This document shows positions 52,025-61,983 of a stretch of DNA of 64,000 nucleotides, piece by piece. The stretch is taken from NCBI GenBank assembly GCA_035544215.1, contig DATKHY010000003.1, positions 124,001 to 188,000 of the forward strand. Reading direction: 5' to 3'. Below the pieces are notes generated by a model. The model made no database searches. It saw nothing but the letters and a program-made list of their open reading frames with translations, and had not been told where the DNA came from. Made by a program: the position numbers and the translations under genes. This stretch comes from Candidatus Binatia bacterium. GTDB taxonomy: Bacteria > Vulcanimicrobiota > Vulcanimicrobiia > Vulcanimicrobiales > Vulcanimicrobiaceae. Numbering within the stretch: the first letter of the stretch is position 1; every line of letters begins with the position of its first letter.

Positions 52025-52315
52025 ATGCCGTGGAGCTTCTGGGTGAGTTATCTGTTGAAACTGGGCGTCGTCGGAGCGCTGCTCGCGGCGCTCTACGCCG
52101 CGGCTCGAGCGCTACGCCGGATGCGCTTCTTCACGCGTCCGGGCCAGCGCAGGATCAGAGTGATCGAGACCGCCGTGGTGTCGCAGCACGCCGCGATCTA
52201 CCTCCTCGGCGTCGGAACGCGTTGCTTTCTGATCGGCACCGCGGGTGCTTCGATCGCGACGCTGGCGGAGCTCGCGCCGGCAGACCTGCAGCCCGCGGAG
52301 ACTAGCCGAGACTAG
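52025..52315 (+). CDS. FliO-like membrane protein
   Basis: 96 residues. One N-terminal membrane helix (VSYLLKLGVVGALLAALYAA) is followed by a short cytoplasmic SH3-like domain with IRVIETAVVSQHAAIYLLGV, the pattern of FliO/FliZ-family proteins. FliO helps assemble the FliP pore of the flagellar export gate. Placed 6 bp after the FliJ-like gene; its stop overlaps the convergent Vgb-like gene. Confidence 0.6.
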   Translation: MPWSFWVSYLLKLGVVGALLAALYAAARALRRMRFFTRPGQRRIRVIETAVVSQHAAIYLLGVGTRCFLIGTAGASIATLAELAPADLQPAETSRD

Positions 52316-53355
52316 ACGTTGAAGTAGCGGAACTGTGCGAGCTTGTTGCCGAGGGTTTCTACGAAGTAGACTTCGCTGTCGTTGCCCAGCGTCATTGCGG
52401 TGGGACCGGAGTTCGACGTCGGAACCGGATAGTACAGCACGCGGTGCGATCTGAAGAAGAACTGGCCGATTTTGTTCGCCTTCGTATCCGTGAAGTAGAA
52501 GTTGCCGTCGATCCCCTGCACGAGCTGATCCGGCGTCATCGACGCCGCACCCAGCGGATACTCGGCAGTGATGTTGCCCGTCAGGGAGATGCGCGCGATC
52601 TGTTTGGCGTGCTGCTCGATGAACCATAGCGCCTTGTCCGAGCCCGGCGCGATTCCCATCGGACGCGATCCCGGGGTCGTCACCGGAAACTCGCTGAGCG
52701 GCCTGCCGCTCACGGGAAGGCGTCCGATCGCGTTCGTGCCCGACTCCGTGAACCACAGCGCGCCGTCGGAGCCGTTGGTGATTGAAAGCGGCTGCGCGTT
52801 CCCCGTGAGGTGGAACTGCGTGAACTTCACAAACGGCTTCCTCTTGATCTGCTGGATCCGCCAGACGGAGTTCGTTCCCGTGTCGGTCACCCACATGTTG
52901 CCGTCCGCTCCGAGGGCGATGCCGACGGGTCGCGCCGCGGCATCGGGAAACGTGTACTCCGTGTAGGGAGGTCCGTTCACCGTGATCTGCCCGACCTTGG
53001 CGAGCTTGGTTTCGGTGAACCAGACGTTTAGGTTCGGGCCCGGGCCGGAGGCAATGCCGTTGGGCGTCGAGCCGCGCGAGGGCGTTACGTTTTCGGAGAT
53101 CTTGCCCGCGAGATTGAGTTGCCCGATTTTACTGGGTCTGGACTCGGTGAACCAGAGGTTGCCGTCCGAGCCGAGCGCGATGCCGAGCGGATCGCTCGAC
53201 GCGGTGGGGATCGGGTACTGCGCCGTGACCGCCGGCGTCGGAGTCGGAGCCGGCGTCGGTGTGCCGCTCGTGACCAAATTGCCGTAACCGTTTCCGCACG
53301 CGGCCAAAAAGCCCACGGTCAGGAAGGCGAGCAGCATGCGCGCCGTTGGCACCAA
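52312..53355 (-). CDS. Vgb/streptogramin-lyase-like beta-propeller lipoprotein
   Basis: 347 residues. A TTG start (Shine-Dalgarno GAGGAG 6 nt upstream), a signal peptide with lipobox GFLAAC, then a Thr/Pro linker. The body is a propeller with repeated GSDGNLWFTES..KIG, GADGNMWVTDTG and GSDGALWFTESG blades, like virginiamycin B lyase. True Vgb has catalytic His residues that I cannot assign here, so it is probably a sensor or binding propeller rather than a lyase. Confidence 0.75.
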   Translation of the reverse strand: MVPTARMLLAFLTVGFLAACGNGYGNLVTSGTPTPAPTPTPAVTAQYPIPTASSDPLGIALGSDGNLWFTESRPSKIGQLNLAGKISENVTPSRGSTPNGIASGPGPNLNVWFTETKLAKVGQITVNGPPYTEYTFPDAAARPVGIALGADGNMWVTDTGTNSVWRIQQIKRKPFVKFTQFHLTGNAQPLSITNGSDGALWFTESGTNAIGRLPVSGRPLSEFPVTTPGSRPMGIAPGSDKALWFIEQHAKQIARISLTGNITAEYPLGAASMTPDQLVQGIDGNFYFTDTKANKIGQFFFRSHRVLYYPVPTSNSGPTAMTLGNDSEVYFVETLGNKLAQFRYFNV

Positions 53356-53429: not shown

Positions 53430-53488
53430 CCTAAATATTTAGTTGACAGCCCGGGACCGACCCGCTATGATTCAACTAAATCTTTAGG
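53430..53488 (+). promoter_or_regulatory. Promoter with paired BlaI-type operators
   Basis: -35 TTGACA (53443-53448), a 17-bp spacer and -10 TATGAT (53466-53471), a near-consensus promoter. Two operator arms flank it in inverted orientation: 53430-53446 and 53472-53488, 16 of 17 bases identical as inverted copies. Each holds a 12-bp palindrome, CTAAATATTTAG (perfect) and CTAAATCTTTAG (near-perfect). Arm 1 overlaps the -35; arm 2 lies over the start point. A repressor dimer at each site would shut the promoter. Confidence 0.8.
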
Positions 53489-53505
53489 AGTAACAAGGAG
53501 ACGAC

Positions 53506-53625
53506 ATGACATACAGGGCCGATTCTTCCAGCGCAGAGCTCAGCCGCAGCTCTCGAACCCGGGTGCGGCTGCCCGAGCCGATGGCGCCGACGCGCCTGTT
53601 CCAGGGCTGGGGCCCGACGGTCTAG
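53506..53625 (+). CDS. 39-aa ORF ahead of blaI (candidate leader peptide)
   Basis: First ORF after the strong promoter, with AAGGAG 5 nt upstream of the ATG. The product is Ser/Arg-rich in its first half and ends PTRLFQGWGPTV; no hydrophobic segment. It ends 11 bp before blaI. The excellent initiation signals favour translation; no homologue is recognised. Confidence 0.5.
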   Translation: MTYRADSSSAELSRSSRTRVRLPEPMAPTRLFQGWGPTV

Positions 53626-53636
53626 AGGGCGGGCGA

Positions 53637-54023
53637 ATGGCACGACGACGCTCCGCGACGCTGACGGAGGCCGAACTGCGGCTAATGGAGGTGCTATGGC
53701 AGCGCGGACACGCGAGCGTCGCCGAGGTGACGGCCTCCCTGCCGCCCCCTCCGATCGCGTATAATAGCGTGCTGACCACAATGCGGATTCTGGAACGCAA
53801 GGGCTACGTCGCCCACGAGGAGGCCGGCCGCGCCTTCATCTATCGGCCGCTGCTTGGGCGGGAGGAGGCCGCGGGCCATGCCGTCGGTCACGTGCTCTCG
53901 CGTTTCTTCGACAACAGTGCGGGCAGCCTGGCGCTCCGCCTCATTGAGAACGAGCGCCCGTCGGGCGACGAGTTGGCGCGTCTCAAGGCGCTGATCGAGG
54001 AGTACGAGGAGGGCGAAAAGTGA
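53637..54023 (+). CDS. BlaI/MecI-family transcriptional repressor
   Basis: 128 residues. N-terminal winged helix: LTEAELRLMEVLWQRGHASV, then YNSVLTTMRILERKGYV, the DNA-recognition and wing region of BlaI/MecI. The C-terminal dimerisation and cleavage region (LSRFFDNSAGSLALRLIE) resembles the segment cut by BlaR1/MecR1-type proteases. The operators lie upstream in its own promoter, so autorepression is expected. It overlaps the M56 protease gene by 4 bp (GTGA). Confidence 0.93.
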   Translation: MARRRSATLTEAELRLMEVLWQRGHASVAEVTASLPPPPIAYNSVLTTMRILERKGYVAHEEAGRAFIYRPLLGREEAAGHAVGHVLSRFFDNSAGSLALRLIENERPSGDELARLKALIEEYEEGEK

Positions 54024-56104
54024 TAGGCCTGCCGCAAGGCTTCGTGACTGTCGCGAGCGTGCTGTCGGCGATCGTACTCAACGCCCTCTGGCAAGACGCG
54101 CTGCTCGTCGTATCGATTTGGATCCTGTTGCGTTTGTGGCCGCGCATCAACGCTGCGACGCGCTACGTCGTGTGGAGTGCGACGCTGATTGCGGCGTTCG
54201 TAGTCCCCGTCGCCACCACGCTCTCGTTCTTCGCCGTTCCGCAGCCGGCGCCGGCAGCGGTCGTGGCGACGCAAGCCCCGCACGCGCGCACAAACCTGCC
54301 GCGGATACCGGAACGGTCGGGTCGCTCGAGCTCCGAGCGCGTGGCGCGCGCGTCCGAGGCGGGGCCCGCGGTGCCGCGTGTGCCCGAACGCGTGCGTGTG
54401 ACCATGCCCGCGCCGCTAGCCGTCGCGATCTTCATCACGTGGCTGCTGCTGGCGTCCTACGCGCTCTTCCGGCTGGTCATCGGACTGGTGAGCCTGGAAC
54501 GGCTCAAGCGCGACGCGTTGCCGCTCCCCGTCGATTATCGCGACGCGATGCCGCAGTGGACCCGCGCGAACAAAGGTGCCCGCGACGTGCGGTTGTGCGT
54601 GAGCGACGACACCGACGTTCCCGTGGCCGTCGGGCTGTTCGACGCGATGATCCTCGTCCCGCACACGCTGCTGGACCGCCTGTCGCAGGGCGAGGTCGAT
54701 CAGATCTGCCTGCATGAGCTCGCGCATCTGCGGCGGGCGGACGACTGGAGCAACGGTTTCCAGCGGCTGCTGATCGCTTTGCTGGGCTGGAATCCGGCCG
54801 CGCAGTTCATCGGTCAGCAGCTAGATCTCGAGCGCGAGGTCGCGTGCGACGACTGGGTGCTCTCGTTTGTCGGAATGGTTCGCCCGTACGCGCTCTGCCT
54901 AACGAAGATGGCCGAGCGCGCCTCGTGGCCGCGCCATCCGATCCCCGCGCCGGGCGTCTTCGCGACCCGCAAACACATCTCGCTGCGCATCGAACGGCTG
55001 CTCGGCGCAGGGCGCAACATCGCGACGAATCTTTCGCTCGCGCCGGCGGCCGCGGCGATCGCCGCCGTCGCTGCACTCGCCCTGGTCATCGGCGTCGTGG
55101 CGCCATCGGTCGCTGCTCCGTACGTCGCGAACCCAGAGACGACTGCCGCCGCGCAGGCGCCGAAGGTTGCGGCGAGCGCGGCGCACGCCGCGGCGGCGCC
55201 CGCCCGGCAAGTCACACGCACGATCGTGCGCGAGGTGCGCGTGCCGGTGGCAACGACGGCGGCGTCCGGACAGACGACGGCGTCGCATTTCCAAGGTTCC
55301 AGCATCACGGTTCCGAGCGTTACCGTGCCGAGCGTGAAGGTGCCCGGTGTTCCGGGCATGACCGTTCCGAAGGTCGTGATTCCGAAGATAACGGTCCCGG
55401 GCTACGACTCGAAGCAGCTTGCCGAGACGGTTTCGAAGCAGGTGCGCGCAGGCATCGACTCGGCGCTGGGGCGGCCGGCCGCGTCGGGCGGTGCGAGCAA
55501 CTGCTCGGGTTGCGACTTCGGCGGCGTCAACTGGTCGGGGCGCGACATGCGCGGCGTCAACTACACCGGCGTTGACCTCAGCGGTGCGAATCTCACCGGA
55601 ACGAACTTCTCCGGCGGCAGCTTCAACGGCGTCGACTTTCGAAACGCGAACCTGTCGGGTGCGTCATTCCGCAACGCGCGCTTGACCGGCTGCGACTTCT
55701 CGGACGCGAATCTCTCCGGCGTCGACTTCCGCGGGGCGCGGCTTTCGGGTTGCCAGTTCACCGGAGCGCAGCTCGCCTCGTCGGAAATGCGCGACGTACT
55801 GAACAGCTGCACGGGTTGCGACTTCCGGCGGGCGAACCTGGCCGGACTCAACCTGTCGAACGTGCGCGCCAACGGCGACGATTTCAGCGGCGCCGACTTG
55901 CGCGGCGTCAACTTCTCGGGAGCCCTGCTCACCGGGATCGACTTCAGCAACGCAGACTTAAACGGAGCGAACCTGAACGGCACGACGTTCAACGGCTGCG
56001 ATCTGGAACACGTCGACCTGAGTCACGTCGATCTCTCGAGAGCCAAGATGATCGGCACCGATTTTTCGAACCGACGAAGTCCGCCGGCCCCGCCGCCTCC
56101 CTAG
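54020..56104 (+). CDS. M56 (BlaR1/MecR1-type) membrane protease fused to pentapeptide repeats
   Basis: 694 residues. The N-terminal membrane protease domain (hydrophobic segments at about 10-40, 50-75, 130-150, then 330-360) has zinc motif HELAH (His232-His236) and downstream LEREVACDD (Glu271/Glu273). After the last helix, where BlaR1 has a penicillin-binding sensor, it has a Val-Pro repeat linker (SVTVPSVKVPGVPG) and about 190 residues of pentapeptide repeats (495-685) in two modules, each opening CxGC (Cys495/498, Cys597/600). No SxxK or KTG is present. By analogy it would cleave the BlaI partner on sensing a signal with the beta-helix. Confidence 0.88.
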   Translation: MIGLPQGFVTVASVLSAIVLNALWQDALLVVSIWILLRLWPRINAATRYVVWSATLIAAFVVPVATTLSFFAVPQPAPAAVVATQAPHARTNLPRIPERSGRSSSERVARASEAGPAVPRVPERVRVTMPAPLAVAIFITWLLLASYALFRLVIGLVSLERLKRDALPLPVDYRDAMPQWTRANKGARDVRLCVSDDTDVPVAVGLFDAMILVPHTLLDRLSQGEVDQICLHELAHLRRADDWSNGFQRLLIALLGWNPAAQFIGQQLDLEREVACDDWVLSFVGMVRPYALCLTKMAERASWPRHPIPAPGVFATRKHISLRIERLLGAGRNIATNLSLAPAAAAIAAVAALALVIGVVAPSVAAPYVANPETTAAAQAPKVAASAAHAAAAPARQVTRTIVREVRVPVATTAASGQTTASHFQGSSITVPSVTVPSVKVPGVPGMTVPKVVIPKITVPGYDSKQLAETVSKQVRAGIDSALGRPAASGGASNCSGCDFGGVNWSGRDMRGVNYTGVDLSGANLTGTNFSGGSFNGVDFRNANLSGASFRNARLTGCDFSDANLSGVDFRGARLSGCQFTGAQLASSEMRDVLNSCTGCDFRRANLAGLNLSNVRANGDDFSGADLRGVNFSGALLTGIDFSNADLNGANLNGTTFNGCDLEHVDLSHVDLSRAKMIGTDFSNRRSPPAPPPP

Positions 56105-56210
56105 TCTAACGCCTTAGCGCGTTAACGCCGCCACTCGGAAAAAATGCCTCGCAGGGTGAGGCCTGGTTTCCTGCGCCCTCTCGATGCCACACGAACGGAG
56201 AACGACTGAA

Positions 56211-56951
56211 ATGACTGCAATCTTAGCCGCGCTCTTTGCCCTCTCCGTCGCGGCGAGCAGCGGGCTTCCGATGAACTGCGTCGGATGTTCCTTCGCGGGC
56301 CGCGACCTTCACGGCGCCGACCTCTCGGGTGCCGCCTACGTCGGAGCCGATTTCGCGCGCGCCGATCTGCGCAACGCGAGCCTGCGCGGCGCGAACCTCG
56401 CGGGCGCCGATTTTAGCGACGCCGACCTGCGCGGAGCGGATTTCCGCGACGCCAGGCTCGCCGGCGTCGACCTCCGCGGCGCGCGCATTCGCGGAGCCAA
56501 CTTTACAGGCGCGCAGCTGGCGGGCGTCGATCTGCGCGACGCATTGAGCGACGCGGGCGACGCCGAGATCCGTGGCCTGCTCGGACACTGCGCGGGCTGC
56601 CAGATGCGCGGCGCCGTCATCGAGGGACGGGATTTGTCGGGCGTTTCGATCCCGGGAAGCGATTTGCGCGGCGCCCGCGCCCGCGGCGTACGCCTTACGG
56701 GCGCGGACCTGCAAGGCGTCGACTTCGCCGGCGCGGATCTGCGCAACGCCGACCTGCGCAACGCGCGACTCTGCTACTACAACGACGAGTCGATCGGCTG
56801 CGCCGATTTCCGGGGCGCGGACGTGCACGGCGCCGATCTGCGCGGAGCGCTCATCTGCCGCAGCCACAGGGAGTCGAGCCGGTGCGATCCGGTCGACGCA
56901 GGCACGCTGCGGCGCTATGCGAAGTCGGCGCTGGACGGCGCGCTGCTCTGA
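56211..56951 (+). CDS. Secreted pentapeptide-repeat protein
   Basis: 246 residues from the ATG at 56211 (signal peptide MTAILAALFALSVAASSG; an upstream ATG at 56184 hides it). The mature protein is right-handed beta-helix repeats (ADLRGADFRDARLAGVDLRG type) in two modules opening CVGC (Cys23/26) and CAGC (Cys127/130), the same caps as in the M56 protein, plus a Cys-containing C-terminal part. A 106-bp gap after the M56 gene contains two short inverted repeats. Probably the partner or substrate in the same circuit. Confidence 0.82.
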   Translation: MTAILAALFALSVAASSGLPMNCVGCSFAGRDLHGADLSGAAYVGADFARADLRNASLRGANLAGADFSDADLRGADFRDARLAGVDLRGARIRGANFTGAQLAGVDLRDALSDAGDAEIRGLLGHCAGCQMRGAVIEGRDLSGVSIPGSDLRGARARGVRLTGADLQGVDFAGADLRNADLRNARLCYYNDESIGCADFRGADVHGADLRGALICRSHRESSRCDPVDAGTLRRYAKSALDGALL

Positions 56952-59017
56952 TGGTTACGGTGCCGCTAGCGGTGACGCAGACCGCACCCTCGCTGCAGCC
57001 AAGTGCTTCAGTCGACGCGTGGAATAAGGCGACGTCGGCGCCGCTCAAGTGGGACGTCGGTCACGCGCGTGCGTCGCAAGACACGACGTTGGTACACGCC
57101 ACTACCGACGGGAAGTATCTTTACGTCCGATTCGACGCCCAGCAGCACGAACCACTGATGGCCGCCCAACACAGCGACGACACGGTTGCGGGAGGCAGCA
57201 ACATCAACGGCGGCATCGCTTGGACCGACGACGCCGTTTGGGTGGACCTCTGGCCGACCGGCCCGGCGGGCTTTCAGTACCAGTTCGAATCGAACCCAAA
57301 CGGCGCGCATAACGAGGCCTCGACCGAAAATACAGCCTTCGCGCCGGAATGGGAATCGCGCGGCGCGGCAACCTCCGCCGGCTACGTCGTGACGATGGCC
57401 ATTCCGCTGCGCGTCATTCACGGTGCGCATGCAGGTACGTGGCGCGTGCAGTTCGTGCGCTACGTACGCTCGACGGGGGAACTCGACGTCTGGTCGTACG
57501 ATCAGTCGCAGACCAATCCGGACGATCCGGCTCGTGCTGGGCGGCTCGACGTACCGCTGGTTGCGAAACCGCCGCTGCCCAAGCCGCGCGTCGGCATGTA
57601 TGCGCTCGGCGAGGTCGCGAGCCGGTCGATCGGCGGCAGCACGTCTCGCGTCGGGACGGACTTTTCGATTCCGGTCACGCAGACGGCGGCAGTTTTCGGC
57701 ACGCTGCACCCCGACTACTCGAACGTCGAGATCGACCAGCAGTCGATTTCGCCGACCGTCTATCAGCGCATTTACTCGGAGGTCCGGCCGTTCTTCACCC
57801 AGGCTGCACCGTATTACAACAACTTCAATTGCGACGTCTGCAGCGGATTTCGAACGATACTCTATACGCCGGCAATTCCAACGCCGTCTCAAGGCTATGC
57901 ATTCGAAGGGAAGCAGGGAGCATTCGGACTAGCCGGATACGATGCAATAGGCGACGGCCGAAACGACTCGGCCGAGGCGCTGAACTATACTTCGGACGAC
58001 AATCACTGGAATGCCGCGCTGCAGCATGTGGTCGCCGACGTCCCCGGCGTCGTCGACGTCTCGAACGAGGCCGGCGTGAGCTGGTTCAACGGAAAGTATC
58101 TCTCGGGGTATGCGAACTACGCGACCGACCGTGGAACTAACGTGCTCGATCCTTCGCAAGGCAACTGGCTCGACGCGGGCGGCGGCTTCATCAGCCAGCA
58201 GTATGCGCTCTTCGGCTCCTACCGCGACGTGGGGACCTACTTCAACCCCGTCGACGGCTTCGATTCCCATCCGGGCATTCGGGGTTATGGCCTCTACGGT
58301 GCGCGGGTGTGGACGTTTGCGCCCAAGGATTTTTTATCGTCGATCGGCATTTCGGGTTTCATGGACCGCTACCAGGGAACCACGACTCCCGGCGTCGCGC
58401 AGAGCGATAACCAAGTGCTGGTGGATTTCCTGACCAAAGGCACGGTTGACCTTCAGCTCTATTCGGGATCGGATTACTGGCGCTTCGGCTCTGACCTCAC
58501 GCCGATCTCGCAAAACGCCGGCTTTAGCCTTACGTATCACAGCGGTATGCAGAATAACCTCAACAATTTTCCGACCCACGGATCGTCGGCGACGCCGACG
58601 TCGATTCAATGGTACACGGGAAATTACGGCATCGGCGGCCGCCTCGACACGTGGTTCCGTAACTCGACGATTCGCGTCGGCAACCGCGGCGCGCTCACGC
58701 TGACGCTCGACGATACGGCCCAATATTTCCACGCGGGATCGCCGAACATCCAATGGTTCGAAGAAATCGCCTACGCGTACCAGATGAGCGCGAATTCGTC
58801 GTTTGCGATCGGCGTACGGCGCGTGGTCGGCTATCCGCCGCAGCCCAATGGCGGCGGCAATTGCGCAGGATCGTGCTCGAACATCTCGATCGCCTACCAT
58901 CTACGTTTGCGCCGGGCCGAGATCTACGCCGCCTACGGCAATCCGAATACGCTGATCACGGTGCCGCAGGCGATCTTCAAGCTGATCTTCTATGCCGGCG
59001 GCGAGAAGGGGACGTGA
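56951..59017 (+). CDS. DUF5916-type protein: CBM9-like domain plus predicted outer-membrane barrel
   Basis: 688 residues from the ATG at 56951, overlapping the preceding stop by one base. The N-terminal beta-sandwich (about 20-200; YLYVRFDAQQ, DDAVWVDLWP) resembles family 9 carbohydrate-binding domains. The central signature HPDYSNVEIDQQ..RPFFTQ matches the DUF5916 hallmark, and alternating strands after it look like a beta barrel. The first residues lack a clear signal peptide (MVTVPLAVTQTAP), which is odd for a barrel; the 5' end may be truncated or start elsewhere. Confidence 0.7.
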   Translation: MVTVPLAVTQTAPSLQPSASVDAWNKATSAPLKWDVGHARASQDTTLVHATTDGKYLYVRFDAQQHEPLMAAQHSDDTVAGGSNINGGIAWTDDAVWVDLWPTGPAGFQYQFESNPNGAHNEASTENTAFAPEWESRGAATSAGYVVTMAIPLRVIHGAHAGTWRVQFVRYVRSTGELDVWSYDQSQTNPDDPARAGRLDVPLVAKPPLPKPRVGMYALGEVASRSIGGSTSRVGTDFSIPVTQTAAVFGTLHPDYSNVEIDQQSISPTVYQRIYSEVRPFFTQAAPYYNNFNCDVCSGFRTILYTPAIPTPSQGYAFEGKQGAFGLAGYDAIGDGRNDSAEALNYTSDDNHWNAALQHVVADVPGVVDVSNEAGVSWFNGKYLSGYANYATDRGTNVLDPSQGNWLDAGGGFISQQYALFGSYRDVGTYFNPVDGFDSHPGIRGYGLYGARVWTFAPKDFLSSIGISGFMDRYQGTTTPGVAQSDNQVLVDFLTKGTVDLQLYSGSDYWRFGSDLTPISQNAGFSLTYHSGMQNNLNNFPTHGSSATPTSIQWYTGNYGIGGRLDTWFRNSTIRVGNRGALTLTLDDTAQYFHAGSPNIQWFEEIAYAYQMSANSSFAIGVRRVVGYPPQPNGGGNCAGSCSNISIAYHLRLRRAEIYAAYGNPNTLITVPQAIFKLIFYAGGEKGT

Positions 59018-59040
59018 AACCGTTCGGACCCAGGCTCGGT

Positions 59041-61107
59041 ATGAGGGGCATGCGCCTTTTCGCTTCCATGACGTTGGCTTGCGTACTCTGTCCCGTTGCC
59101 GCCTCCGCGGCACCGGTCGCGCCGGAGGACCTCTTTAAGCTCACGTTGTTGAGCAACGCGGCGATCTCGCCCGACGGGCGCCTCGTGCTGGTGGAAGCGT
59201 CGCGAATGAACGGTCCCAAAGACACGTACGACCGCTCGATCGAGTTGGTGGACGTAACGAGCGGTCAGCGCAAGCACAACGTCACGAAGCATCTGGGGGA
59301 CGGAGACTACGCTTGGATGCCGGACAGCCGCAGCTTCGTGTTCGTGCGGACCGTCGAGAAGCAGAAGCCGCAACTGTACCGCTACACCATCGCGGGGGGC
59401 ACCGTCGCGCTGCTCACGCACTCAACCGACGGCGTCTCGGCGCCGGTCGTCGACCACGCCGGAGATCGGATAGCGCTCACGGTCACCGCGACCGATCCGT
59501 CTCCTAACGCGCAGGTCGACTTCGCGAAGGCCGGCTTCACGCCGAAGTCCTCGCAGCGCAAGAGCGACATCGCGGTGATCGACTCCCTGTTCTTCGAGGC
59601 CAACGGTCAAGGCTACACCTACCGTCAGCATCAGCACATCTGGGTCGTGGACGCGGATGGGTCGCATCCGAAGCAGCTTACCTCGGGCAAATACTCCGAG
59701 AACTTCGACGACTGGTCGCCCGACGACCGGACGATCCTGTTCGATTCGCTACGCTACGACTCGGTCGACGGCGGCCCCAGCGACGTCTACACGATGCCGG
59801 CGACTGGTGGCCCCATGCAGAAAGTGGCGTCGCCGCTGCCGGCCAATAACGGTGTCTTCTTTAGCGCGAACAATCGCGAGGTCTTCTTCCTGAGCGGCGG
59901 CATTCAGGACGCTGCCGAACGCCCCGCGCTCGTCGTCGCGAACCTGGACGGCTCGAATCGCCGCGTTTTGGTGGAGCGCGACGCAGTGGGCTGGGGCGAT
60001 ACGCTGCTGGGCGATATGAAGGAAGGCGGCGGATTTTGCGGGTGGCGGCTTCCGGACGGAAAGCGCGCGCTGCTCAACATGGACGGCGCCGGCTACGCCA
60101 ACTTGCAGACGTTAGATCTTTCGAGCGGCGACTTCCGGCCGGTCACTCCCGCCCGGGGCGAGGCCTGGTCGTGCTCGATCTCGCGCGACGGAAGCCGCGT
60201 CGCGTATCTGTATAGCGACTTCACGCATCCGGCCGATGTGTACGTCGCCGACCTGGGCGGCGGCACGCCGCGCGAGGTCACGAACGTCAATGCGGCCTAC
60301 CTCGCAAGCATCACGCTTTCGCAGCCGCGCGAGTTTGCGGTGAAAGATTCGGCCGGATTCACCGTGCAGGCCTGGTTCATGCCCGCGACCGGCGGCGCGC
60401 CGAACGCCATGCATCCGACGCTGCTCGACATCCACGGCGGACCGGAGACGCAGTTCGGCGATACGTTCTTCCACGAGTTCCAGCTGTATGCATCGGAGGG
60501 CTACAACGTCGTCTTCTCCAATCCGGTGGGCAGCACCGGGCACGGTCACGCCTTCGAGGAGGCGCTCGAGAGCAACTACGGCGACGCGATGTTCGCCGAC
60601 GTCCAGGCGGTAATGGATGCGGTCGTGCAGCGGCCCGATGTCGACGCGACGCGCCTGGCCGTGCTGGGCGGATCCTATGGAGGATACGCGACGCTGTGGG
60701 TGATCTCGCACACCGATCGCTACAAGGTGGCCGTCGCCGAGCGCGCGGTCAGCAACGTGCGCACCGAGAACCTGACCGCGGACTTTGCCGCGAAGAACGG
60801 CCTAGGCGGCGGCTACTACAACTGGGGGCCGCCGTGGGATCCAGCCAGCACGGACTACGCGCGCTTCTCGCCGCTCACATACGTCGCCGACGTGCACACG
60901 CCGCTGCTGATCCTGCACTCCGACGACGACACCCGCGCGCCGATCGACCAGACGCTCCAGGAATACACCGCGTTGAAGATCCTCGGGCGCACCGTCGAGT
61001 ACGTCGCGGTACCCAACGAAAACCACGACCTGTCGCGCACCGGATCGCCGATCCACCGCGTCGAGCGCCTCAACCTCATCCTCGACTGGCTGCAGAAGTA
61101 CGTTTAA
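59041..61107 (+). CDS. S9-family prolyl oligopeptidase-type peptidase, exported
   Basis: 688 residues from the ATG at 59041 (GTG at 59014 overlaps the previous stop; ATG at 59050 also possible). A signal peptide ends ASAAP. The N-terminal beta-propeller (ISPDGRLVLVEAS, WMPDSRSFVFVR, WSPDDRTILF) gates an alpha/beta-hydrolase domain with nucleophile GGSYGGY, Asp in HSDDDTR and His in ENHDLSR. Acts on short oligopeptides outside the cytoplasm. It directly follows the DUF5916 gene and may be co-transcribed. Confidence 0.92.
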   Translation: MRGMRLFASMTLACVLCPVAASAAPVAPEDLFKLTLLSNAAISPDGRLVLVEASRMNGPKDTYDRSIELVDVTSGQRKHNVTKHLGDGDYAWMPDSRSFVFVRTVEKQKPQLYRYTIAGGTVALLTHSTDGVSAPVVDHAGDRIALTVTATDPSPNAQVDFAKAGFTPKSSQRKSDIAVIDSLFFEANGQGYTYRQHQHIWVVDADGSHPKQLTSGKYSENFDDWSPDDRTILFDSLRYDSVDGGPSDVYTMPATGGPMQKVASPLPANNGVFFSANNREVFFLSGGIQDAAERPALVVANLDGSNRRVLVERDAVGWGDTLLGDMKEGGGFCGWRLPDGKRALLNMDGAGYANLQTLDLSSGDFRPVTPARGEAWSCSISRDGSRVAYLYSDFTHPADVYVADLGGGTPREVTNVNAAYLASITLSQPREFAVKDSAGFTVQAWFMPATGGAPNAMHPTLLDIHGGPETQFGDTFFHEFQLYASEGYNVVFSNPVGSTGHGHAFEEALESNYGDAMFADVQAVMDAVVQRPDVDATRLAVLGGSYGGYATLWVISHTDRYKVAVAERAVSNVRTENLTADFAAKNGLGGGYYNWGPPWDPASTDYARFSPLTYVADVHTPLLILHSDDDTRAPIDQTLQEYTALKILGRTVEYVAVPNENHDLSRTGSPIHRVERLNLILDWLQKYV

Positions 61108-61167
61108 CACGGCACTGACCGTCACAGGCAGGTGTCGTCGGGCGTCGTAGCAGTAAGGATACACGCT

Positions 61168-61983
61168 TTGAAAGCCGCCCTTGCCATGTTGACGGGCGTG
61201 CTGGCGCTCGGCGCCAGTCCGTCACCGCCGCCGACGATCTACCAGGTGGTTACGCGCCCCTTATGCGCGCAGCTGCACGACCGCATCGCGCCGGCGATCG
61301 GCATGATGCTGCAGAACGATTCGACGATCAGGAAGGGCCCGGATTACTTCAAGGAATACAACACCGGCTCGCTCTACGGGTCGGGGCCGAGCACAAAGAG
61401 CGATCCGGTCAATAGCGATCCGGGAAGCGGCACGTCGAACTCGTCACAGAACATCGCGCTGCTCGGGATGGAAAACCTGATCCGCCCCATTGCCAACAAC
61501 ATCATCGCGATCCAAACGCTCCTCGATAGCCCGCAGCTCACCCAGGGAACGGGACAAAAGGACGACGACAAGCGCTTGGGCGAGATCCGCGCGAAGCTGC
61601 TGCATGCGCTTGCCGCGCAGAGCGCGTCGCTGGATATCATCAGCGGGTTCGTCGACACTCAGCAGATGGCGGACCTGCAGCACGCGGGCGAGGGCTACAT
61701 CAGCTCGATCAGCTCACCCGATAGCCGCAACGCGAGCATCTCGACGCCCGCTCCCAATCCGCTCGAGGCCAATCCGAACTACGCGGGCCTTGCGCCGAAT
61801 CCGTACGCGATCGATCCCGCCTCGATTCCGGGCTTGACGCTCGGCTACAACCCGGTGACGCGGCTGCAGGGCGCGCTGACGTGGACCATTTCGGAGGCTC
61901 AAACGCGCGAGAACGAAGCGGCCAAGGCCGTCATGGCTAGTGCCGTCTTGTGCGGCAACGCGCAGCCGACACCGACGCCATAA
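61168..61983 (+). CDS. Exported hypothetical protein, helical
   Basis: About 271 residues from the TTG at 61168, chosen because TAAGGA lies 8 nt upstream and gives a clean signal peptide (MKAALAMLTGVLALGAS); the GTG at 61132 is an alternative. The mature protein is mostly alpha-helical with Asn/Ser/Pro-rich linkers and a Pro-rich end. Two cysteines (RPLCAQL, VLCGNAQ) bracket the protein and may pair. No family recognised. Confidence 0.55.
   Translation: MKAALAMLTGVLALGASPSPPPTIYQVVTRPLCAQLHDRIAPAIGMMLQNDSTIRKGPDYFKEYNTGSLYGSGPSTKSDPVNSDPGSGTSNSSQNIALLGMENLIRPIANNIIAIQTLLDSPQLTQGTGQKDDDKRLGEIRAKLLHALAAQSASLDIISGFVDTQQMADLQHAGEGYISSISSPDSRNASISTPAPNPLEANPNYAGLAPNPYAIDPASIPGLTLGYNPVTRLQGALTWTISEAQTRENEAAKAVMASAVLCGNAQPTPTP

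Follow-up and report, generated by a model that had tools for sequence, protein, structure and literature searches.

A BlaI–M56 operon that encodes a pentapeptide-repeat receptor together with a secreted protein of the same repeat type

Overview

The stretch of DNA analysed here (64,000 nucleotides of contig DATKHY010000003.1 from a Candidatus Binatia bacterium; hereafter the window) carries an operon encoding a BlaI-family repressor, a BlaR1-type M56 zinc-protease receptor that ends in a beta-helix of pentapeptide repeats (PPR), and a secreted protein likewise built of such repeats (Table 1). The window is part of a 3.23-Mb assembly, the near relatives of which are Candidatus Eremiobacterota, a little-studied phylum of soil bacteria that possesses an outer membrane (PMC6664022; PMC9758169). 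Among the M56 genes sampled in this phylum, a secreted PPR partner is found beside most that encode PPR receptors and beside no others, and most receptors with an unrelated alpha-helical repeat have secreted partners of their own kind. We put at about 0.5 the probability that the locus encodes an envelope-homeostasis circuit, in which BlaI represses the operon, with the secreted solenoid either docking on the receptor solenoid or competing with it. Nearly everything known of BlaR1-type receptors concerns the sensing of antibiotics, and control of the outer membrane by a secreted pentapeptide protein was recently demonstrated in Caulobacter. Here an M56 receptor and a secreted pentapeptide protein are encoded by a single operon whose operators are clear, and the phylum has a cultivated member, Vulcanimicrobium alpinus WC8-2 (3.50 Mb, 68.4% G+C; PMC9758169). 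Whether the secreted solenoid acts as a switch for a receptor of the same solenoid fold thereby becomes a testable question.

Pairing of receptor and partner across the phylum

M56 loci were sampled across Candidatus Eremiobacterota with P0002 as the query, and 85 M56 genes with enough 3′ flank were usable. Their sensors comprise 50 PPR domains, 16 alpha-helical repeats (LSxDDLIRLRxxGV...) and 19 others (TonB_C, HEAT-like repeats, DUF4097, DUF2807 or short tails; these domains, the HEAT-like repeats being recognized by eye, occur at loci L082, L084, L086, L098 and L068), proportions that are no census because this query over-represents PPR receptors. Partners were sought in six frames within 2.5 kb of each receptor, using profile hidden Markov models (HMMs) whose seed sequences were partners that phmmer had first detected next to the same receptors. 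A PPR partner accompanies 37 of the 50 PPR receptors and none of the 35 other M56 genes (Fisher test, 2e-13), and an alpha-repeat partner accompanies 14 of the 16 alpha-repeat receptors (11 of 13 without L065, L066 and L126, which fell below the repeat-count cut and were typed as alpha after their partners had been seen) and none of the 69 others (3e-14); both values overstate independence because the species are related, and the real replicate is the recurrence of the rule in two unrelated folds. No cross-pair between the PPR and alpha-repeat types was found among the 85 loci. In genome G025 (one contig, 3.51 Mb; 68.4% G+C at locus L097) two secreted PPR genes accompany the receptor. The co-occurrence of PF00805-bearing M56 proteins with a secreted PPR gene, which the first-pass annotation (made from the sequence of the window alone) had proposed as a check, and the conservation of the set in relatives, the lack of which it had taken as refuting, are both found in the phylum.

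Four receptors carry partner-type sequence in the same chain. Three from one genus (L081, L094 and L095) extend beyond the sensor into a partner-type C-terminal cap, with the partner HMM aligned over positions 25–268 of 268; the cap is the diagnostic piece of these fusions, since the N-terminal part of the HMM also resembles the second module of the sensor. The alpha-type receptor L078 spans positions 23–289 of 289 in its partner HMM, including an N-terminal domain that is absent from other receptors. No separate partner was found at any of these four fusion loci.

On a quick tree of 79 PPR domains, which has many weak forks, the receptor and secreted labels require four changes, compared with 26 in shuffles. 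The low count points to old receptor and partner lineages kept together rather than repeated fresh duplication, and the receptor and secreted PPRs thus appear, from their sequences, to be mostly separate old lineages.

A plasmid search for a PPR–M56 fusion outside the phylum returned no record in which the greater part of the receptor lay together, a genome-collection scan, which detects close relatives only, returned Eremiobacterota only, and no M56 protein with pentapeptide repeats was found in the open-access literature. Matching receptor and partner deletions at L041 and L042 were considered as co-variation and dropped; the number of CxxC motifs differs between receptor and partner at other loci.

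Secreted alpha-repeat partners, with an N-terminal domain (...TFRIVRDAG.F.CDGW...) followed by repeats, were seen at L065, L066, L076, L077, L081, L092–L094, L123, L124, L126, L128 and L130. Three of them (L066, L076 and L093) were scanned and gave no Pfam family above the cut-off, and the partners are possibly an undescribed family.

Receptor and secreted partner

The Peptidase_M56 match contains HExxH, a downstream E-x3-D and an Asp nine residues after the first His, which are features of the M56/BlaR1 family; the E/D pattern and this Asp recur in 89 of 91 proteins, and the protease aligns with BlaR1 structures (PDB entries 8exs and 8exp, E 1.5e-4). Hydropathy peaks lie near residues 10/31, 64, 141 and 352, and the protease itself contains a weaker one at 209. 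The PPR begins beyond the last peak, behind a Val-Pro-repeat linker at about residues 370–490. BlaR1 has an N-out/C-out topology with a cytosolic protease (PMC9834060), and the order of the M56 segments agrees by analogy with this arrangement, which would place the protease inside and the PPR outside; the basis of the assignment is hydropathy, the AlphaFold model of the membrane part being too poor for use. A family scan of the M56 protein found no transpeptidase or beta-lactamase domain, the PPR standing in its place, and NCBIfam blaR1_generic scored 53 bits against a cut-off of 400.

PF00805 tandem repeats and a four-sided beta-helix are common to the receptor domain and the secreted protein. 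AlphaFold2 models the C-terminal domain of M56 as a beta-helix (residues ∼501–680, with a block predicted local distance difference test score, pLDDT, of about 79–92; the remaining M56 model is unreliable) and the secreted protein likewise (mean pLDDT 87.9), and Foldseek matches the PPR parts to PPR structures such as HetL, MfpA and QnrB. Both proteins have CxxC-headed modules with a spacing of 102–104 residues. CxxC is present in 36 of the 36 PPR partners checked, the second CxxC often being internal, and most PPR partners retain a partner-specific C-terminal cap. By hydropathy, the secreted protein carries an N-terminal hydrophobic, signal-like segment.

The first-pass annotation had read the locus as a BlaI/MecI repressor and an M56 protease with a HELAH motif, in which a Val-Pro linker and pentapeptide repeats take the position of the penicillin-binding sensor and the next gene encodes a secreted protein of the same repeat type. 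The family matches, the zinc motif, the linker, the repeats behind the last hydrophobic segment and the signal-like N-terminus of the partner all bear this description out, and the hydropathy order gives no indication of cytoplasmic repeats.

Two further observations concern these proteins. The genome of the window encodes an orphan secreted PPR protein with a partner-type C-terminal cap (L071:5349-6137; G000 C3, about 481.3–482.1 kb), near which a search of that genome found no M56 gene. In one relative (L046:7992-9808) the M56 frame is split into two open reading frames (ORFs), by a frameshift or an assembly error.

Promoter and operators

A de novo search of blaI promoters in the phylum yielded the dyad ACTAA-N4-TTAGT, which occurs with at most two mismatches at 40 of 49 promoters and in two copies at 22 (2.2 and 0.04 in shuffles); the count is no independent test because the motif was derived from those promoters, and the shuffles exclude composition only. 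In the usual layout the first dyad directly adjoins the −35 box TTGACA, with its second copy 45 bp further on, beyond the −10 box; the 45 bp spacing recurs in most two-operator promoters. The repressor has a Penicillinase_R domain and its promoter carries dyad operators, both as in BlaI/MecI repressors, the operators being predicted by sequence. The half-site ACTAA differs from that of staphylococcal BlaI/MecI operators, which are of the TACA/TGTA type. Such TACA...TGTA operators were rejected as candidates, there being essentially none upstream of the blaI genes.

The window contains the only operator pair genome-wide (53430–53488). A start at 53430 takes in both operators, on which the first-pass annotation was silent. 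On the simplest reading, the uniqueness of the pair means that BlaI mainly controls its own operon; the other genomic sites are two single ones, within the count of a reversed-pattern control, and no wider BlaI regulon is therefore claimed. As judged from these predicted sites, the circuit most likely controls its own operon, running on into the DUF5916-like barrel and the S9 peptidase.

Output genes

A barrel gene lies 3′ of, or divergent from, 33 of 50 PPR systems and three of 16 alpha systems; relatives of the barrel match DUF5916 and CBM9 weakly, with one above the cut-off. Among the ten PPR receptors with neither partner nor fusion, a barrel is directly 3′ or divergent in most, which argues that the partner modulates; the barrel looks closer than the partner to the core output of PPR systems, though 17 PPR loci lack it.

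Proposed circuit and alternatives

In the circuit that we favour, BlaI dimers at the two operators would shut the promoter of the blaI–m56–ppr–outer-membrane barrel–S9 peptidase operon. M56 would be a BlaR1-type receptor with a cytoplasmic protease and a periplasmic PPR beta-helix, and the secreted PPR protein would be a regulatory subunit of like fold, which either docks on the receptor or is its rival for the same envelope ligand. Under envelope stress the partner would be lost, titrated or modified, turning the receptor on; M56 would then cut BlaI, and the barrel, the peptidase and fresh partner would be made, the last of these resetting the receptor. The sequences supply the framework of this proposal: the set of genes, the order expected for the topology, the operators, the rule of pairing, the fusions and the old separate lineages. 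On it we infer docking, stress as the signal and cleavage of BlaI, with receptor topology and BlaI cleavage carried over by analogy from BlaR1 (PMC9834060).

Several observations weigh against this circuit. Ten of the 50 PPR receptors have no partner in the searched flanks and no fusion, so the partner is not indispensable, and 17 of the 50 PPR loci are without a barrel, so the output varies. Given protease and BlaI, receptor and partner distances are weakly correlated (0.13, p 0.07; 0.23 in the barrel-bearing subset); the corresponding correlation with the barrel is 0.38–0.41, and the receptor–partner value, being no stronger, is unspecific. In the cleavage region of BlaI, LVLNFVE of MecI aligns with LALRLIE, placing Leu at P1′ instead of the Phe that has been termed almost invariant in MecI/BlaI (PMC9834060), a reason for caution over the putative cleavage of BlaI here. 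The direction of control, with the partner as an off-signal, is suggested by analogy with YjbI of Caulobacter (PMC12864828). The part of the first-pass annotation that made the secreted beta-helix a member of a signalling circuit gains from the strong association in both folds and from the four fusions; an obligatory ligand is not what the receptors lacking both partner and fusion indicate.

The principal competitor follows BlaR1/BlaZ logic: the receptor domain and the secreted PPR protein would bind the same outside molecule, one reporting it and the other neutralizing or carrying it, and the solenoids would never touch. The canonical bla system already couples a sensor, that of BlaR1, with a related regulated protein, the induced beta-lactamase, the two having beta-lactams as common ligands; the pairing rule in two folds and the CxxC-headed modules of common spacing also speak for this account. 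Partner-type sequence fused to a receptor fits direct coupling better, and these PPR helices show no evident ligand pocket or enzymatic function; we regard a shared ligand as unlikely, if well worth considering. It is less probable still that the PPR and alpha-repeat domains serve as stalks or anchors that keep the receptor close to the cell wall or the outer membrane, while the signal enters elsewhere, via the loop that connects the second helix to the third or via the membrane, and the secreted solenoid is only an effector partner of the barrel. Short or missing sensors in some M56 receptors of the phylum, the correlated barrel and solenoid distances and the long Pro-rich linkers ahead of the repeats would suit such stalks; the fold of the partner, however, follows the fold of the receptor and not the presence of the barrel, and partner-type sequence occurs fused to receptors. 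That the secreted gene is the remnant of a duplicated sensor domain and plays no part in signalling, as the high similarity of the two and the loss of the gene at some loci might suggest, is very improbable in view of the old separate lineages maintained side by side across a family, the cap kept in most partners and the same arrangement in an unrelated fold.

The like pairing of an unrelated repeat fold suggests a design that can be reused, with receptor–partner pairs of a general type guarding the envelope. We tentatively propose, at somewhat short of an even chance, a class of matched-solenoid M56/BlaI systems in which receptor and secreted solenoids of the same fold would dock, the fold would be exchangeable (beta-helix or alpha-repeat) and the state of the outer envelope would be converted into proteolysis of a cytoplasmic repressor. 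If this is true, PPR helices would act as receivers of signals, for which the open-access literature found gives no precedent.

Comparison with known systems

The locus resembles BlaR1–BlaI and MecR1–MecI of Staphylococcus and Bacillus in its BlaI-family repressor, its M56 receptor with HExxH and a downstream ExxxD, a sensor beyond the last transmembrane helix, promoter operators and an autoregulated operon. It differs in that a PPR beta-helix replaces the penicillin-binding sensor and a matching secreted solenoid gene is present, in that the output is an outer-membrane barrel and a peptidase, and in the P1′ Leu of BlaI. The logic of CpxA–CpxP and ChvG–ExoR, in which a periplasmic partner keeps a membrane receptor off, may be shared; CpxA and ChvG are histidine kinases, and receptor and inhibitor are of different folds. 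With MfpA, Qnr and AlbG, which are cytoplasmic and gyrase-related, the likeness is one of fold only (Foldseek), the fold here being extracytoplasmic by hydropathy.

The secreted PPR protein YjbI of Caulobacter crescentus, in which cysteine pairs flank the helix, silences envelope-stress signalling; zinc stress leads to its destruction, and the response then restores it (PMC12864828). The partner here recalls YjbI in its quadrilateral beta-helix, its signal-like N-terminal segment and its CxxC pairs, the second of which is often internal. YjbI is tied to control of outer-membrane composition, and the link to the outer membrane is here one of operon linkage to the barrel gene. YjbI acts on two-component systems (PMC12864828), whereas here the PPR-bearing receptor and its repressor share one operon.

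Gene organization and neighbouring features

Table 1. Features of the BlaI–M56 locus in the window.
Feature	Position	Strand	Remarks
Upstream BlaI-type operator, CCTAAATATTTAGT	53430..53443	.	Overlaps the −35 box
Sigma70-like promoter, TTGACA-N17-TATGAT (11/12 consensus)	53443..53471	+	One such site expected by chance in the region; supported by its position between the operators
Downstream BlaI-type operator, ACTAAATCTTTAGG	53475..53488	.	45 bp from the first
Small ORF (39 aa) between operators and blaI	53506..53625	+	Conserved in relatives
blaI, BlaI/MecI/CopY-family repressor (128 aa)	53637..54023	+	Penicillinase_R, E 1.3e-29
m56, BlaR1-type zinc-protease receptor with C-terminal PPR domain (694 aa, GTG start)	54020..56104	+	Peptidase_M56, E 1.4e-25; PF00805, E 8e-57, seven stretches
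HELAH zinc motif of M56 (residues 232–236)	54713..54727	+
M56 sensor PPR beta-helix (residues 495–684)	55502..56071	+	Two CxxC-headed modules spaced 102 residues
Secreted PPR partner (255 aa)	56184..56951	+	PF00805, E 7e-48; alternative start 56211
Outer-membrane-barrel-like protein, CBM9/DUF5916-like (688 aa)	56951..59017	+	Start overlaps PPR stop (TGATG)
S9 prolyl-oligopeptidase-family secreted peptidase	59014..61107	+	Start overlaps barrel stop (GTGA)
Signal-bearing protein without family assignment	61132..61983	+	Kept downstream in relatives; possible last operon gene

The junctions from blaI to the S9 peptidase gene all overlap (blaI and m56 by 4 nt), except that 79 nt separate m56 from the PPR gene, and blaI lies immediately 5′ of m56 in 88 of the 89 M56 genes with enough flank. 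No RNA families were found in the region. The motif RTRVRLP...GWGP of the small ORF is present in the window and at seven related loci (L049, L050, L051, L054, L056, L059 and L062), and the product could be a leader peptide or a small regulatory protein. Divergent from the operon lies a lipoprotein-like gene of the Virginiamycin B lyase family (Vgb_lyase; 52312–53355), the position of which is conserved in close relatives.

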